This document shows, piece after piece, positions 26,984-51,021 of a stretch of DNA of 64,000 nt. Origin of the DNA: Clostridiaceae bacterium (GTDB lineage Bacteria > Bacillota > Clostridia > DSM-8532). The stretch covers positions 1 to 64,000 of the forward strand of contig DULR01000091.1 of the NCBI GenBank assembly GCA_012840245.1. Reading direction: 5' to 3'. Within the stretch, counting starts at the first letter, position 1, and the number at the start of each line of letters is the position of its first letter. The notes under the pieces are model-generated. The model did not search any database. It worked only from the letters and a program-made list of their open reading frames with translations, and was not told where the DNA came from. A program made the translations under genes and the position numbers.

Positions 26984-26996
26984 ACTTTACCTCCTT

Positions 26997-27108
26997 GGGA
27001 CACGGGGACAGGATCTTGTCCCACTTCTGATTTTCATTAAATAAAATTATATACCGCTTTGCCGTGATCATCAAGGCTGGGACACAGGGAAGGATATTTG
27101 TCCTTATA
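26997..27108. repeat. Two direct copies of a GGGACA...TGTCC intergenic repeat
   Basis: Copy one (26997-27022) begins GGGACACGGGGACAGGATC and ends TTGTCCC. Copy two (about 27079-27105) begins GGGACACAGGGAAGGATAT and ends TTGTCC. Each can form a hairpin. The first abuts the ribosome-binding site of the aldo/keto reductase gene. Sequences of this look are common between clostridial genes. Confidence 0.55.
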
Positions 27109-45362: not shown

Positions 45363-45495
45363 GAGAACACAAGGGGACGGTTCCTCTGTGCACTTTTTTA
45401 CCGAAATGTTTTAATGAAAACACCCCAAGATTTAAGTATCTTGGGGGTGTTTATTAGTGCACAGAGGAACCGTCCCCTTGTGCTTTTGTGTTCTC
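45363..45495. repeat. Long inverted repeat (MITE-like) surrounding a terminator
   Basis: Outer arms GAGAACACAA (45363-45372) and TTGTGTTCTC (45486-45495). Perfect inner arms of 24 bases (45371-45394 and 45456-45479) contain GGGGACGGTTCCTCTGTGC and its complement. At the centre is a strong hairpin, AACACCCCAAGAT (45419-45431) with ATCTTGGGGGTGTT (45438-45452, one bulge), followed by TTATT. The element lies between the convergent Rieske-fusion and multicopper-oxidase genes, and its right arm covers the first two bases of the latter's stop codon. The GGGACGGTTC core recurs at 50550 and 51008. Confidence 0.75.
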
Positions 45496-46885
45496 AGACC
45501 GGGACAAGATCTTTATATTCCTGATCGGTATCCTCCATGTACCTCCAGTCATATTTCGGGTCATTGTCGTCCTCAAATACATGGTCTTTCCAGTAGTACT
45601 TCTTGTCGTAAATTTCATCATCCGCTTCGTCAGGATCCTTTACGCATACTTTCGGATCATCGTATCTTATCCTGTCATGCTTCCTGCAATCCTTGCAGCC
45701 CGGAGTAAAAAGGTTTTTCCTGACTACCTCTAAAGGCCTCATCATATCGTGATCTTCGTGCTCAAGTATATGGCAGTGGAAAACATACCTGCCGGTATAA
45801 GGCCCGAAGCGAATCAGCAGCCGGGTAACATATCCCGGAAAAGCCTGAACTGTGTCGAACCAGCCTCTCAGTTCGGGTGGAAGCGGCTCAGGATCACCTG
45901 TATACCTTATCTGTCCTGTCTGATTATAAGCTGCAGTATCGAATGGTATACGGTCGAGGATCTGGAACTGGATCTGATGGATATGGATAGGATGCACTCC
46001 CAGTCCCGGGTTGATTATCCTCCAGCATTCCAGTTCTCCGACAACGGGATCTTCTGTGACACCACCTATGAATTCACGATTGTTGAGCATGAACATAAGT
46101 CTTCCGAATCTGTCAGCGCCTACGTCAAGAGAAATGTCTCTTACCTTGCAGACATCTTTTTCCTTGTATCTCTTTATTCTGCTCAGGACTTCAGGTACAG
46201 TGCTGGTATCTTCGCCTGAGGTATTTTCTTTGACTCTGAACTGCATGATGAGTCCGTCGGTGTTGGGATCAGGCGGAGCGCCAAAATCGAAGGGCGTTCT
46301 GGCTGAGTTGGTCAGTATGATGTTGGTACCGACGGGCTGGTCTGTAAAGTCGATAATAACGTCAACACGCTGGGAAGGAGCTATAGTTATTTCCTTCAGC
46401 CGGACGGGCCTTTCCATAAGTCCCCCGTCTGTGCCGATCTGGATGAAATCCTGATCAGATGAAAGCCTCATTCTGTAAAATCTCTCATTGGAGCCGTTCA
46501 GTATGCGGAAACGATATTTTCTCTGTTCTACATCCAGATATGGCCAGGCTTTACCGTTGACGATTATGGTATCACCGGCAAAACCAGGGGTAATGGACAC
46601 CTCCGGGTATGTAGGAGGAGGGTTGTCTACATTTCTGGGATAAAAAAGAGAACCATCCTCGTTGAAAGACTTGTCCTGGATGACCAGTGGTATCTCATAG
46701 ACCCCGGAAGGTAAATTGAGAGACCGTTCCTCATTGCTGCGGATTATGTACAATCCTGCCAGCCCGGCATAGACATTCAGTCTGGTTATTCCGAGAGCAT
46801 GATCGTGATACCAGAGCATAGAAGCCCAGGGCTTCATGGGAAGGATCACGACCAGCAATGTGGGATATGTGGCTTCCAGGACCAT
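45494..46885 (-). pseudogene. Multicopper oxidase (CotA-like), N-terminal domain missing
   Basis: 463 residues of a laccase/CotA-type oxidase. Copper ligands of the middle and C-terminal parts are present: 'LWYHDHALGITRLNVYAG', 'HPIHIHQIQF' and 'YVFHCHILEHEDHDMM' (trinuclear and type 1 sites). The first HxHG motif and about 100 preceding residues are absent: homology starts near 'KPWASML' (about 46834), and a stop codon lies just before the ATG at 46885. Upstream DNA instead encodes the tail of a plus-strand dehydrogenase. The enzyme should lack a complete trinuclear centre and is probably inactive. The C-terminal ~60 residues are an unusual Asp/Lys/Tyr-rich tail. Confidence 0.75.
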
Positions 46886-47057
46886 AGATCACGCACTTAA
46901 AGGGAAAGCTGTTTATATTCCCGGCTATGCCAACCGTGTCCTGCGTTTTCTGGGGCGATGCGTCCCTCAGACCGCCATAGCCCGGACGCTGCTTACACGA
47001 TGGAGAGAAGCTTATAAAAAAAGCCATGGGACATTAACAATGGAGGTATTGTTATGA
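46869..47057 (+). pseudogene. C-terminal remnant of a short-chain dehydrogenase
   Basis: Plus-strand frame encoding 'VASRTIDHALKGKAVYIPGY', 'ANRVLRFLGR' and 'TRWREAYKKS', the typical tail of DltE-like SDR enzymes, without any Rossmann fold or catalytic Tyr-x-x-x-Lys. The frame upstream runs into the multicopper-oxidase sequence. Its stop (TGA 47055-47057) overlaps the ATG of the intact SDR gene at 47054, and the GGAGG for that gene lies within its end, so the two were once a translationally coupled pair. Confidence 0.6.
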
Positions 47058-47944
47058 AGGGCAAAATAGTCGCAGTGACCGGCGCTACTTCAGGCATCGG
47101 CCTGGCAACAGTAAAGGCTTTATGCAGCAAAGGTGCATATGTGATAGGAACAGGCAGATCCCAGGAAAAATGTGCTCAAATCAGGAAAGATATTTTTAAA
47201 AGCTTTCCGCAGGCCCGGACAGAATATCTTGTGGCAGACTTCTCATCATTGGGCAATGTCAGGAAGCTTGCCCGGGATATAGCAAAAACCATTGAAGCTT
47301 GGGGCAGAAATCACCTGGATGTACTTATAAACAACGCGGGGACCTTTACAAGCTGGTACATGTCTTCTGCTGAAGGTTTTGAGATGCAGTTTGCTGTAAA
47401 TCACCTTGCGCCTTTTTTGCTGACGAATCTGCTCTTTCCATTGTTGAAGAATGCTCCTGATGCAAGGATCATAACGGTCAGCTCAGGCTCACATTACCAT
47501 ACGAGGATGCATTGGGATGATCTGCTTTTAAGAAAACACTATAACTGCTTATTGGCATACAAGCAGTCAAAGCTTGCGAATGTGCTTTTCACGAGGGAAC
47601 TCAGAAGAAGGTTGGGAGGAGGATCGAAGATAAGCGCCATTGCAGCCGATCCTGGTCTCGTCAACACCGAGATGGGACTTAAAAATACGGTCGGAATAGC
47701 CAAGCTGGTATGGAGCATAAGGAAAAACAGCGGACGTACACCGTCGGAAGCAGCCGAAACCATCGTATATCTGGCTGAAGATAAGACTGTCAGAAATTCC
47801 GGGGATATTTATTTTAAAGATTGCAGGGCCAAAAAGCCCAACCCGAGGGGATTGGATGAAGAGAACGCCAGGCGTCTCTGGAAAATATCGGAGAAGATGT
47901 GTGGGATAAGATCGGAAGATTATGGATTGAAGGACGAGCAATAG
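47054..47944 (+). CDS. Short-chain dehydrogenase/reductase (SDR family)
   Basis: A 296-residue NAD(P)-dependent oxidoreductase of the classical SDR fold, closest in look to retinol-dehydrogenase/WWOX-type members. Cofactor motif 'VTGATSGIGLATVKAL' (about 8-23), 'LINNAGTFTS', catalytic Ser in 'ITVSSGSH' and 'YKQSKLANVLF' (Tyr-x-x-x-Lys). GGAGG precedes the ATG and overlaps the remnant SDR gene upstream. The substrate cannot be assigned. The original promoter was probably lost with the front of the remnant gene. Confidence 0.88.
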   Translation: MKGKIVAVTGATSGIGLATVKALCSKGAYVIGTGRSQEKCAQIRKDIFKSFPQARTEYLVADFSSLGNVRKLARDIAKTIEAWGRNHLDVLINNAGTFTSWYMSSAEGFEMQFAVNHLAPFLLTNLLFPLLKNAPDARIITVSSGSHYHTRMHWDDLLLRKHYNCLLAYKQSKLANVLFTRELRRRLGGGSKISAIAADPGLVNTEMGLKNTVGIAKLVWSIRKNSGRTPSEAAETIVYLAEDKTVRNSGDIYFKDCRAKKPNPRGLDEENARRLWKISEKMCGIRSEDYGLKDEQ

Positions 47945-48009
47945 ACATTGATGACCGTGGATTTAAGTTATAAAATTGAAATATCACGGTGAGAAATGGG
48001 GTAGTTATA

Positions 48010-48330
48010 TTGGATGCCCAAATGAAAAAAGGGCTTTTGGATGTATGCGTTTTACATGTGTTAAAAAACGGGGATACGTACGGCTATAAACTGACTCAGG
48101 AAATTACAGAGCTGCTGGAGGTCTCAGAGTCTGCGCTTTATCCCGTATTGAGGCGCCTTGAGAATCAGGGGTATCTGATAACTTATTCCGGGGAGTTTTC
48201 GGGCAGGCTGAGAAAATATTACCGTATCACCGATCTTGGAATACGCCGCCTGAATGAATATATACAGGAGCTCATGGAGTTGAAAAGAGTCATAGATGCC
48301 GTAACAGGAGGGAATCAAAATGGAGAATAA
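48010..48330 (+). CDS. PadR-family transcriptional regulator
   Basis: A winged-helix regulator of about 106 residues: 'DAQMKKGLLDVCVLHVLKNG', 'TYGYKLTQEI', then 'ESALYPVLRRLENQGYL' (recognition helix and wing) and a short C-terminal helix. I prefer TTG 48010 as start because family members begin 'MDAQMKKG' and GGGGT lies before it; an upstream GTG (47989) is possible. The next gene starts inside its 3' end and encodes a HAAS-domain protein, the standard companion of this PadR subtype, which probably modulates the regulator's activity from the membrane. Confidence 0.88.
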   Translation: MDAQMKKGLLDVCVLHVLKNGDTYGYKLTQEITELLEVSESALYPVLRRLENQGYLITYSGEFSGRLRKYYRITDLGIRRLNEYIQELMELKRVIDAVTGGNQNGE

Positions 48331-49609
48331 AGCTGCTGATTTTATAAACAGTCTTAAAGAAAACCTGTCAGAGCTTCCGGAAGACGAAAGATTGAACGTG
48401 ATCCTGTACTATGAGGAATATCTGAACGATGCCCGTGATTCAGGAAAGGATGTGGATGAAGTAATAAAAAGCCTGGGAAATCCCTCTGACATTGCGGCAG
48501 TCATTATGGCAGAAGTATCTTTCAATCAGGCCAGAAACAAGCCGGGAATTAAAAATTTCAACAAGGTCATAAAGAACATATTTCTCGGAGTGTCCGGTCC
48601 TTTCGGATACTTTATCAGAACAATATATCTTATTATTGCGTACGGCCTGATAATCATTTTCACAGGAGCGTCCCTGGCATCATTATTATGCGCGGTTACG
48701 GGATTTGCAGGACTTTTGTATGAAGCATTCAAAATCCCGTCAGCTTTTGCGGGAGAACGGCTGGGAACGATCGGCATGTCTTTGTTCGCCCTTGGAGTAT
48801 TTGCCCTTCTGAGCTATGCTTTCTTCATATTCAGCAAATGGCTTGTTTCCAGGGCTACCGAAACTATCAGAAAAATGGTCAGGAAGAATATCCATCAGAA
48901 GTCTTATAAAGCGATGGCTGAAAAGAAAAAGCAGGGCTCAGGGAAGCTCATTCCTCTTGCATTGTCTGTGGTGATAATTGCGGGACTTATCTTGTCGGTA
49001 GCTTCAGGACTTCCCATAAAACTCTTTTATATATTCAACAGCATGAAGCCTGAGAATTTCAAACTGGCCGTAAGTGAGTACAGTGCAGACGGAGTCAGAA
49101 AAATAAAAATAACCACTGAGCATTCCTGCGTAAAACTGGTGAATGACAATACGAAGCCCGGCAAGATAGTCATTACCTACGAACAGCCTGACTGGCTGGT
49201 TTACCAGGAAACAAGCAAAGACGGTGAGATTGCTTTCATAGAATCCTCCAATGGACGGCTTCCTTTGTTCAACCTTGTTTCCCTGCATGAAAGCCGTACC
49301 GATGTTACAGTTTACATGCCCGATGATATCGATCTGGATCAGATTGAAATCGGGAGCAGGGGAGGATACGTATATATAAGCGATATCCTGCAAAATATCG
49401 ATGTCAGGACTTATTCGGGCAGTATTTATCTTGACAATTCACAGACAGAAGAACCATATAACATAAATGCGAAAACAGAATCAGGCAAAATAAAAGCAGA
49501 CTGGATCCCGGATAAGTATAAAGGTAATTCCGAAATATCATACAGGCAGCAGAACGCTGAAAAAACCATCGGGCTGTTCAGTTCAAGAGGAAACATCGAT
49601 ATAGATTAG
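48320..49609 (+). CDS. HAAS (DUF1700)-domain membrane protein with DUF4097-like C-terminal domain
   Basis: A 429-residue protein. The N-terminal 70 residues are a HAAS/DUF1700 helical domain ('FINSLKENLSELPEDERLNV', 'VIKSLGNPSDIAAVI'), which is expected to contact the PadR regulator. Four membrane helices follow (about 95-120, 125-145, 155-180, 215-235). The C-terminal ~180 residues form a beta-rich, DUF4097-like outside domain ('VTVYMPDDIDLDQIEIGSRG', 'VRTYSGSIYLDNS'). It overlaps padR by 11 bases. Such pairs typically sense membrane or envelope state. Confidence 0.85.
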   Translation: MENKAADFINSLKENLSELPEDERLNVILYYEEYLNDARDSGKDVDEVIKSLGNPSDIAAVIMAEVSFNQARNKPGIKNFNKVIKNIFLGVSGPFGYFIRTIYLIIAYGLIIIFTGASLASLLCAVTGFAGLLYEAFKIPSAFAGERLGTIGMSLFALGVFALLSYAFFIFSKWLVSRATETIRKMVRKNIHQKSYKAMAEKKKQGSGKLIPLALSVVIIAGLILSVASGLPIKLFYIFNSMKPENFKLAVSEYSADGVRKIKITTEHSCVKLVNDNTKPGKIVITYEQPDWLVYQETSKDGEIAFIESSNGRLPLFNLVSLHESRTDVTVYMPDDIDLDQIEIGSRGGYVYISDILQNIDVRTYSGSIYLDNSQTEEPYNINAKTESGKIKADWIPDKYKGNSEISYRQQNAEKTIGLFSSRGNIDID

Positions 49610-49661
49610 GAAACGTTTATTAAAGACTATAAAGAAACTCTGGCATAAGAAGGTATTCATA

Positions 49662-50534
49662 ATGAACGAAAGAAACAGTAAAAGCAGTGCGGTCATTCTG
49701 CTGATCATAACAGCAGTCATGTGGAGCTTAGGAGGTATACTGATAAAATCCATCAATGCGCATTCGCTGGCTATTGCAGGTGTCAGGTCAGCCATCTCAT
49801 GCGTCATCATCTCACTGTATGTCAGGAAGCCGAAGTTTACGTGGTCTTTTACCCAGCTGGGCGCAGCCGTTGCCTATGCATTGACTGTGATCCTTTTCGT
49901 TGCAGGGACAAAACTGACAACAGCCGCTAATGCAATATTGCTTCAATATACGGCACCTGTTTTTGTCGCATTGCTTGGAGCATGGCTTCTCAAAGAAAAG
50001 CCCGGATTGGTCGACTGGTTGACTATATTGGTGGTCATAGGCGGAATGATCCTGTTTTTCATGGATAGTATCGATATCAGGGGCTTTTTGGGAAACATAT
50101 TAGCATTATCGAGCGGTGTCAGCTTCGCGCTTTTTACCATATTGATGAGGATGCAGAAAGACGGCTCTCCCATAGAATCAGTGATCCTTGGCAATGCCAT
50201 CACTGCTGTTGCGGGTGTTCCGTTTATCTTTACGGCTGTTCACGATACAAAAGGCTGGGTGTGTCTGATTATCCTTGGCGTGGTCCAGCTGGGGATACCA
50301 TATATTCTTTTCAGCAAAGCCATAAAAAGTTCCAGAGCGATAGAAGCCAGCCTGATCACAATGATTGAGCCTGTACTGAACCCTGTCTGGGTCAGCATCA
50401 TAATCGGTGAAGTGCCAGGGATCCTTTCCATAGCTGGCGGAGTCATCGTAATTACAGCAGTGGCAGTAAGATGTATCATCGTTGCATCAGGCCGTTTCAA
50501 CAGTAAAGAAAGCCACAAACACGCAGTGTGTTAA
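49662..50534 (+). CDS. EamA-family (DMT superfamily) transporter
   Basis: A 290-residue membrane exporter with ten helices in two EamA repeats ('SSAVILLIITAVMWSLGGIL' at the start; second repeat from about 145, 'FLGNILALSSGVSFALFTIL'). Conserved 'LLQYTAPVFVALLGAWLLKE' and 'SLITMIEPVLNPVWVSIIIG' mark the family. AGAAGG precedes ATG 49662. Substrate unknown; relatives export amino acids or small metabolites. Followed by the repeat block at 50550-51017. Confidence 0.9.
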   Translation: MNERNSKSSAVILLIITAVMWSLGGILIKSINAHSLAIAGVRSAISCVIISLYVRKPKFTWSFTQLGAAVAYALTVILFVAGTKLTTAANAILLQYTAPVFVALLGAWLLKEKPGLVDWLTILVVIGGMILFFMDSIDIRGFLGNILALSSGVSFALFTILMRMQKDGSPIESVILGNAITAVAGVPFIFTAVHDTKGWVCLIILGVVQLGIPYILFSKAIKSSRAIEASLITMIEPVLNPVWVSIIIGEVPGILSIAGGVIVITAVAVRCIIVASGRFNSKESHKHAVC

Positions 50535-50549
50535 TATACCGGTATACCA

Positions 50550-51017
50550 GAGGGACGGTTCTTTTGGTTAACTCGGCAGGCGCAAGATTCTCGCTCTGTT
50601 CGCCTTTAAGCACCTGTGTCAATATGATACATTATCTCTATGATGCGACATTCCTCCGCTTACGCTCCGTCATGTCCCAAAGTGTGGTCTTTTTCTAACG
50701 GGTCGCTCAAACTTTTCCCATTCAGTCGATGCTCGGTGGTCATTTCCTTCGAAGCATATCGCGCTCCCAAAGCGAAAATTACGCAAGCGAATTTTCGCTT
50801 ACGAGAAACCTTGTACCAGCCTTAAATAAACCAGGAGGACGAGCCTTTGGCTTATGGGAAAATGTCATTCTGAATGGAGCAAAGCGGAAAGAAGAATCTG
50901 ACTTTGTCATCCTGAGGAAGGAAACGACCGAAGGATCTTAAAACCTGCGTAGTAAGCAAAAAAGATCCTTCGCCTCGCTCAGGATGACAAAAAAATGAAC
51001 CAGAAGAACCGTCCCTC
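50550..51017. repeat. 468-bp repeat block with 20-bp terminal inverted repeats
   Basis: GAGGGACGGTTCTTTTGGTT (50550-50569) matches the complement of AACCAGAAGAACCGTCCCTC (50998-51017) at 19 of 20 positions. No convincing protein frame fills the interior. It holds a palindromic segment around 50776-50804 (GCGAAAATT...AATTTTCGC), a GTCATTCTGA repeat (50864-50901), and a long hairpin with arms GTCATCCTGAG (50906-50916) and CTCAGGATGAC (50978-50988), plus inner arms GAAGGATCTT and AAGATCCTTC. The terminal core GGGACGGTTC also forms the arms of the 45363-45495 element. It is probably a non-autonomous mobile element or nested repeats. The right arm ends 4 bases before the hydrogenase-like gene's stop. 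Confidence 0.65.
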
Positions 51018-51021
51018 CGGT

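Follow-up and report, generated by a model that had tools for sequence, protein, structure and literature searches.

Paired hairpin repeats in a Clostridiaceae genome as probable REP-type elements bearing the ends of a Y1 (HUH) transposase gene

The DNA analysed here, referred to as the window, comprises 64,000 nucleotides (positions 1 to 64,000 of contig DULR01000091.1) of a Clostridiaceae bacterium (GCA_012840245.1), and holds two inverted-repeat elements some 5 kb apart, elements 1 and 2, whose ends share the core GGGACGGTTC. Element 1 fills the gap between a Rieske-type oxidoreductase gene and a multicopper-oxidase-like gene, and element 2 that between an EamA-type transporter gene and an [Fe] hydrogenase-like gene, the names being our reading of the translations (Table 1). 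A preliminary description, made from the letters alone, had placed both elements at the 3' ends of minus-strand genes, which is true but incomplete, as a plus-strand gene ends on the other side of each and the genes are thus convergent. The inverted repeats themselves are real and slightly longer than first described, with arms of 27 nt each around a 61-nt spacer in element 1 (27/27 complementary, 100%) and of 24 nt each in element 2 (22/24, 92%). Their ends are shared in part only: the core is common to both elements, but the outer arms belong to different subfamilies, CACA/TGTG in element 1 and ACCA/TGGT in element 2. Taken whole, element 1 has a folding energy of -78.6 kcal/mol, as compared with -32.5 in shuffles (z -12). 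A search of the window against Rfam gave no match.

The core was found four times in exact form in the window, with seven matches at one mismatch or fewer, a number reached by 0/100 shuffles. In the 2.91-Mb genome, examined as stretches around matches, the count proposed in the preliminary description returned 77 exact copies compared with 5 for a reversed control pattern. Nor does the core occur only singly, an outcome that would have spoken against a family of paired repeats; many copies face an inverted partner at a distance of 30-110 bp (contigs C7, C17, C21, C84 and C99 offer examples). In most genomic copies the core sits away from the centre of an imperfect palindrome (ARM, ~2 nt, GGGACGGTTC, ~3 nt, ARM'), and the unit can be written as a hairpin of 24-30 nt, ARM-x-GGGAC(G/A)GNYC-y-ARM', in which the apical core is fixed and the outer arms vary. 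Besides the CACA/TGTG(CAC) arms of element 1 and the ACCA/TGGT arms of element 2, the subfamilies include TTGTCA/TGACAA and GTGCA/TGCAC, the latter with GGGACGGTCC; these two types often consist of a full unit and a half unit 31-33 bp downstream, with the end GGGAC(A/G)G(A/T)CCT. Pairs of such full and half units bound composites of 280-560 bp with inverted ends of ~50 bp. The variant GGGACRGWCC by itself was weakly enriched (66 against 44 in the reversed control) and therefore only its arm-bearing copies were taken as evidence. On the GGGAC strand the hairpin ACCAGAGGGACGGUUCUUUUGGU folds at -8.7 kcal/mol, while its complement barely folds (-1.8) because G-T pairs contribute to the inner stem; such strand specificity is characteristic of single-strand Y1 transposases (PMC8266576). 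A literature search with the core string returned unrelated papers only.

The preliminary description had proposed a family resembling miniature inverted-repeat transposable elements (MITEs), mobilised by one enzyme, and a transposase gene with the same ends was indeed found. The genome contains one intact Y1_Tnp gene, encoding 260 aa (C69:47188-47967), which is flanked on both sides by inverted full and half units (locus L043, 1206-1262 and 2290-2345) and carries GTGCA arms. The protein displays the motifs NHVH and YVHQNP, and residues H68, H70, Y127, N131 and P132 are invariant in 35 relatives. It scored 79.2 bits with the profile NF047646, for which the cut-off is 80, and its predicted structure (pLDDT 89.6) found its best match in the PDB in 4er8, the E. 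coli TnpA-REP on its repetitive extragenic palindrome (REP) hairpin (E 5.8e-8). The C-terminus is helical in the structure model and gave a weak match to HTH_29 (E 0.093). A second Y1 gene (C89:107-550; locus L184, 1-600) is 5'-truncated, with the catalytic Tyr region and the C-terminus kept; its last codons run into a half and a full unit of the TTGTCA type, and its stop codon lies inside that hairpin. Searches for the enzyme on phages and plasmids gave distant matches only, and thus no vehicle was identified.

The association of enzyme and repeat extends beyond this genome. Among 98 distinct homologues with both flanks available, from the same class and mostly 35-50% identical to the enzyme described above, 65 carried GGGAC[AG] within 300 bp on both flanks in inverted orientation, compared with 4 when the opposite strand was scored and 9 with the reversed motif, and the exact core stood on both flanks in 31/98, against 0 in either control. 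When inverted repeats of any kind spanning the gene were sought blind to the core, GGGAC hairpins were recovered in most loci, while classic IS200-type TnpA loci displayed no flanking pairs of GGGAC hairpins. The distance from unit to gene is fairly fixed (median 65 nt upstream of the start, 23 nt downstream of the stop), and the arms on the two sides belong together, with a matched-arm stem of 5.4 as compared with 2.9 (maximum 3.2) for swapped partners. In 44 flanking units, cut at fixed offsets with pairing disregarded, 89% of cells of a 12-pair hairpin were paired (69.9% in shuffles), with 100 two-sided changes against 33 (standard deviation 5); the covariation score was 0.50, that of the shuffles 0.16. 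Relatedness is lost when columns are shuffled, but it is kept in the slid-register control, which agrees, with scores of at most 0.15.

Copy number and arm type follow the enzyme as well. In 391 genomes of the class, many of them fragmented assemblies, the exact core reaches 458 copies per genome, and the enzyme was detected in 37/43 genomes with at least 20 exact cores as opposed to 88/348 of the others (p=8e-15). Cores with GAAGCA arms, present in 11/391 genomes in all, occurred in 4/4 genomes whose retrieved enzyme gene has GAAGCA arms and in 7/387 others (p=3e-7). The arms of dispersed copies tend to match those at the enzyme gene: in the congener G005, ~40/73 copies have the TGAAGCA arms of its own enzyme gene, and copies in G007 repeat the ATGAGTA arms found at its enzyme gene. 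Enzymes more than 70% identical have arms in common (5.2/6), with 3.1/6 for those at 55-70%, and those below 55% do not (about 2/6), from which it follows that arms change faster than the enzyme. A Mantel test of enzyme against arm over 65 pairs gave rho 0.07 (p 0.07); arm sharing is thus visible only among close enzymes.

It could be envisaged that the repeats are primarily terminators or mRNA 3'-end stabilisers selected by the host, with the core as the signal of a host factor and the adjacency to transposase genes incidental. Both elements do lie between convergent genes, and element 1 encloses a bidirectional terminator-like hairpin (CACCCC..GGGGTG), the sole one of its kind in the window. 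Placement agrees with this: of 50 classifiable sites, 18 were convergent, a mild enrichment over the 23% of window intergenic bases in that class (p=0.03), and 4 were divergent, a depletion relative to 27% (p=0.0008). These classes come from a crude open reading frame call, whose 'inside' class contains spurious frames and chance core matches. Such convergent-rich, divergent-poor placement is usual for REPs and is consistent with tolerance at 3' ends. A terminator function does not explain why dozens of transposase genes are flanked on either side, at a fixed distance, by inverted cores, why the arms change with the enzyme gene or why copy number correlates with the enzyme; element 2 and most units also have no T tract. 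The presence of the flanking hairpins on both sides in inverted orientation likewise argues against their being merely the gene's terminators. We therefore consider it improbable that host selection for 3' ends accounts for the family, while a terminator or transcript 3'-end role remains plausible for element 1, judging from the hairpin it encloses.

Instead, we regard both elements with considerable confidence as REP-type repeats that bear the ends of Y1 (HUH) REP-associated tyrosine transposase (RAYT) genes. As the hairpins carry the same ends as the REP transposase genes, the two elements most likely represent what is left of non-autonomous mobile DNA, now located between converging genes. 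The repeats are high-copy, mostly extragenic palindromes, often inverted dimers, and stand beside an enzyme gene with the same units, as REPs and bacterial interspersed mosaic elements (BIMEs) do. The transposase would recognise the folded hairpin on single-stranded DNA, cut near it, and may have spread it with or without cargo. In both elements the two units lie opposite each other with a variable interior between them, the arrangement known from BIMEs and REP doublets (REPINs). Copies would survive chiefly at sites of low cost to the host, such as 3' ends and the gaps between converging genes, and some, such as element 1, may have enclosed a terminator and come to aid transcript 3'-end formation in a secondary role.

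The mobilising enzyme is very likely a Y1 (HUH) REP transposase and not a DDE transposase. Inverted ends with different interiors, and the 280-560 bp composites with terminal inverted repeats of ~50 bp, would suit classic MITEs of a DDE enzyme with terminal inverted repeats and target duplications. The ends, however, are those of an HUH/Y1 enzyme gene, and each end pairs with itself as a hairpin whose arms covary; target duplications were not observed, and DDE genes were not searched for. This origin we hold to be highly improbable. Of the MITE-like proposal, a non-autonomous family with the ends of one kind of enzyme is well supported, in that these hairpins flank the Y1 REP-type transposase gene here and in dozens of further genomes, but the label itself does not fit a single-strand HUH enzyme and a conserved hairpin apex in place of a conserved terminal sequence, nor were target duplications demonstrable.

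Comparison with congeners bears on the question of movement. The EamA/hydrogenase junction measures ~27 bp in G011 and ~518 bp in the genome analysed here; the core is also absent there from G006, G001, G013 and G009, and in G007 the junction is occupied by another, shorter element whose ends are of the same ACCA type. No target duplication was recognisable at the element 2 junction against the empty congeners, which are too diverged to decide. At the site of element 1, a GAAGCA-armed unit stands in the same place in G005, while the unit of G007 is a collapsed 16-bp palindrome, and at several other junctions the arms of the resident unit likewise differ from congener to congener (G005 and G007 against the present genome). 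Such differences may reflect either renewed insertion at tolerated sites or an exchange of arms through recombination.

Several points weigh against the assignment to a mobile REP family. Neither a transposition event nor a cleavage site or target duplication could be demonstrated, the congeners being 70-85% identical and too diverged for exact boundaries. The intact enzyme gene does not have the ACCA arms of element 2, which may therefore be the orphan of a lost enzyme. About one-third of the 98 enzyme genes were without a detected core pair, and six core-rich genomes, including G003 of the same genus, were without a detected enzyme. It is accordingly a serious possibility, though not the one we favour, that the hairpins belong to the Y1 enzyme but that the copies are immobile relics, kept and reshuffled by recombination between copies without current transposition. 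The presence of a single intact enzyme gene beside four or more arm subfamilies, the decay of the second gene, the different-armed units at the same junctions in G005 and G007 and the collapsed palindrome of G007 would all agree with this, whereas the near-identity of most G005 copies to the ends of its enzyme gene suggests recent spread.

Among known systems, the RAYT/REP systems are the nearest relatives, and specifically, by fit of motifs, TIRYT or 'TIRtron' (Di Nocera 2013, PMC3733652), which equals TnpAY1 subclass 2.1 (Corneloup 2018, PMC6006769), which ranks second in size among the classes of Y1 REP-like transposases in the latter survey. As there, the enzyme is a Y1 HUH protein with NHVH, FQ and Y[IV]HxNP motifs (here GHLFQ and Y[IV]HQNP, with Q for L) and a C-terminal helical extension (helices 201-259) that may be helix-turn-helix-like, and its gene is flanked by inverted repeats; its 260 aa compare with ~240 aa. 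As to the C-terminal helix-turn-helix or DnaA-C-like domain of TIRYT, the present enzyme shows the helical C-terminus and the weak HTH_29 match given above. TIRtrons are flanked by repeats with a GGGG-W-S core (consensus GGGGWSAS) and form moderately abundant families in some genomes (PMC3733652). The terminal repeat GGGG[AT][CG]A[CG] is exact in some relatives (GGGGACAG; loci L083 and L085), while most, and the present genome, have GGGGACGG. Unlike in TIRYT, each end described here forms a hairpin of its own, with arms that covary and GGGACGG at the apex, and exact cores number up to 458 per genome. Canonical REPs and BIMEs with their RAYT (E. coli TnpA-REP; Nunvar 2010, PMC2817692; Bertels 2011, PMC3116915) are likewise short, strand-specific extragenic hairpins in inverted dimers, at 3' ends or in intergenic regions, with the enzyme gene flanked by its own repeats, and the best structural match, 4er8, is of this type. 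In contrast to those, the GT[AG]G tetranucleotide (GTAG/GTGG) was not found 5' of the hairpin foot, nor any conserved foot motif in the hairpins, and it is the apex that is conserved while the outer stem varies; given the absence of the GTAG foot, these are not canonical REPs. CGTC-tagged REPs (Di Nocera 2013, PMC3733652) recall the CGTC on the complementary strand of the core, but there the tag is unpaired at one end and without a transposase, whereas here the motif lies in the loop or upper stem and is associated with an enzyme.

The 2013 text on TIRYT names no Clostridia or Firmicutes (PMC3733652), and neither automatic nor manual searches in the 2018 survey found REP-like sequences for subclass 2.1 (PMC6006769); among the papers searched, nothing later than these two was found under either name. 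If the enzymes belong to subclass 2.1, cognate REPs absent from the published survey would be supplied for Clostridia. The family also accounts for an intergenic motif that is common in clostridial genomes and metagenome-assembled genomes. A recognisable core with natural arm variation in dozens of enzyme-repeat pairs renders recognition directly testable. More tentatively, and rather doubtful in this full form, Clostridia may possess an extensive REP system, so far undescribed, whose outer stem is a changeable address co-diversifying with the transposase, the GGGAC(G/A)G apex an invariant catalytic signal, and the same intergenic sites are re-occupied by new-armed units when a new enzyme is acquired.

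Table 1. Features of the window around the two elements, with a third unit of the same build
Feature	Position	Strand	Remarks
Rieske-type oxidoreductase gene	stop 45360	+	left neighbour of element 1
Element 1	45363..45496		two CACA-arm hairpins in inverted orientation (BIME/REPIN-like); nested outer GAGAACACAA / TTGTGTTCTC
REP unit CACAAGGGGACGGTTCCTCTGTGCACT of element 1	45368..45394, core 45374-45383	+
Terminator-like hairpin CCCCAAGAT..ATCTTGGGG within element 1	45423..45446		T tracts on both strands, bidirectional
REP unit of element 1, inverted copy	45456..45482, core 45467-45476	-	27/27 identical
Multicopper-oxidase-like gene	stop 45494	-	right neighbour of element 1
EamA-type transporter gene	stop 50534	+	left neighbour of element 2
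Element 2	50546..51021		inverted pair of ACCA-arm hairpins around other interspersed repeats
REP unit ACCAGAGGGACGGTTCTTTTGGTT of element 2	50546..50569, core 50552-50561	+	hairpin of -8.7 on the plus strand and -1.8 on the minus strand
Interspersed repeat (~190 bp) in element 2	50573..50766		84-91% identical at ~7 other places in the genome
Module(s) in element 2	50863..50993		GTCATYCTGAG..GAAGGATCT palindromic repeats, common in the genus
REP unit of element 2, inverted copy	50998..51021, core 51006-51015	-
[Fe] hydrogenase-like gene	stop 51022	-	right neighbour of element 2
Third REP, TGGGACA-cg-GGGACAGGATCT-TGTCCCA	26996..27023	+	degenerate second copy near 27077

In the interval of G005 corresponding to the third REP, a unit of the TTGTCA type is found, and the ~190-bp repeat of element 2 is also present in G007 and G002. 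Composites were located at L137 1490-2007 (C50:35975-36500), L138, L139 and L130, three of which have common GTCATYCTGAG..GAAGGATC palindrome interiors, and locus L141 (C10:167-264) is a tandem array of one unit with five head-to-tail cores at a 22-bp period. Element 1 also forms the left edge of a ~4-kb block (45494-49650) with the multicopper oxidase, an SDR, a PadR-like regulator and a membrane protein; this block is absent in G001, G002 and G011, in which the EamA gene directly follows the oxidoreductase gene.

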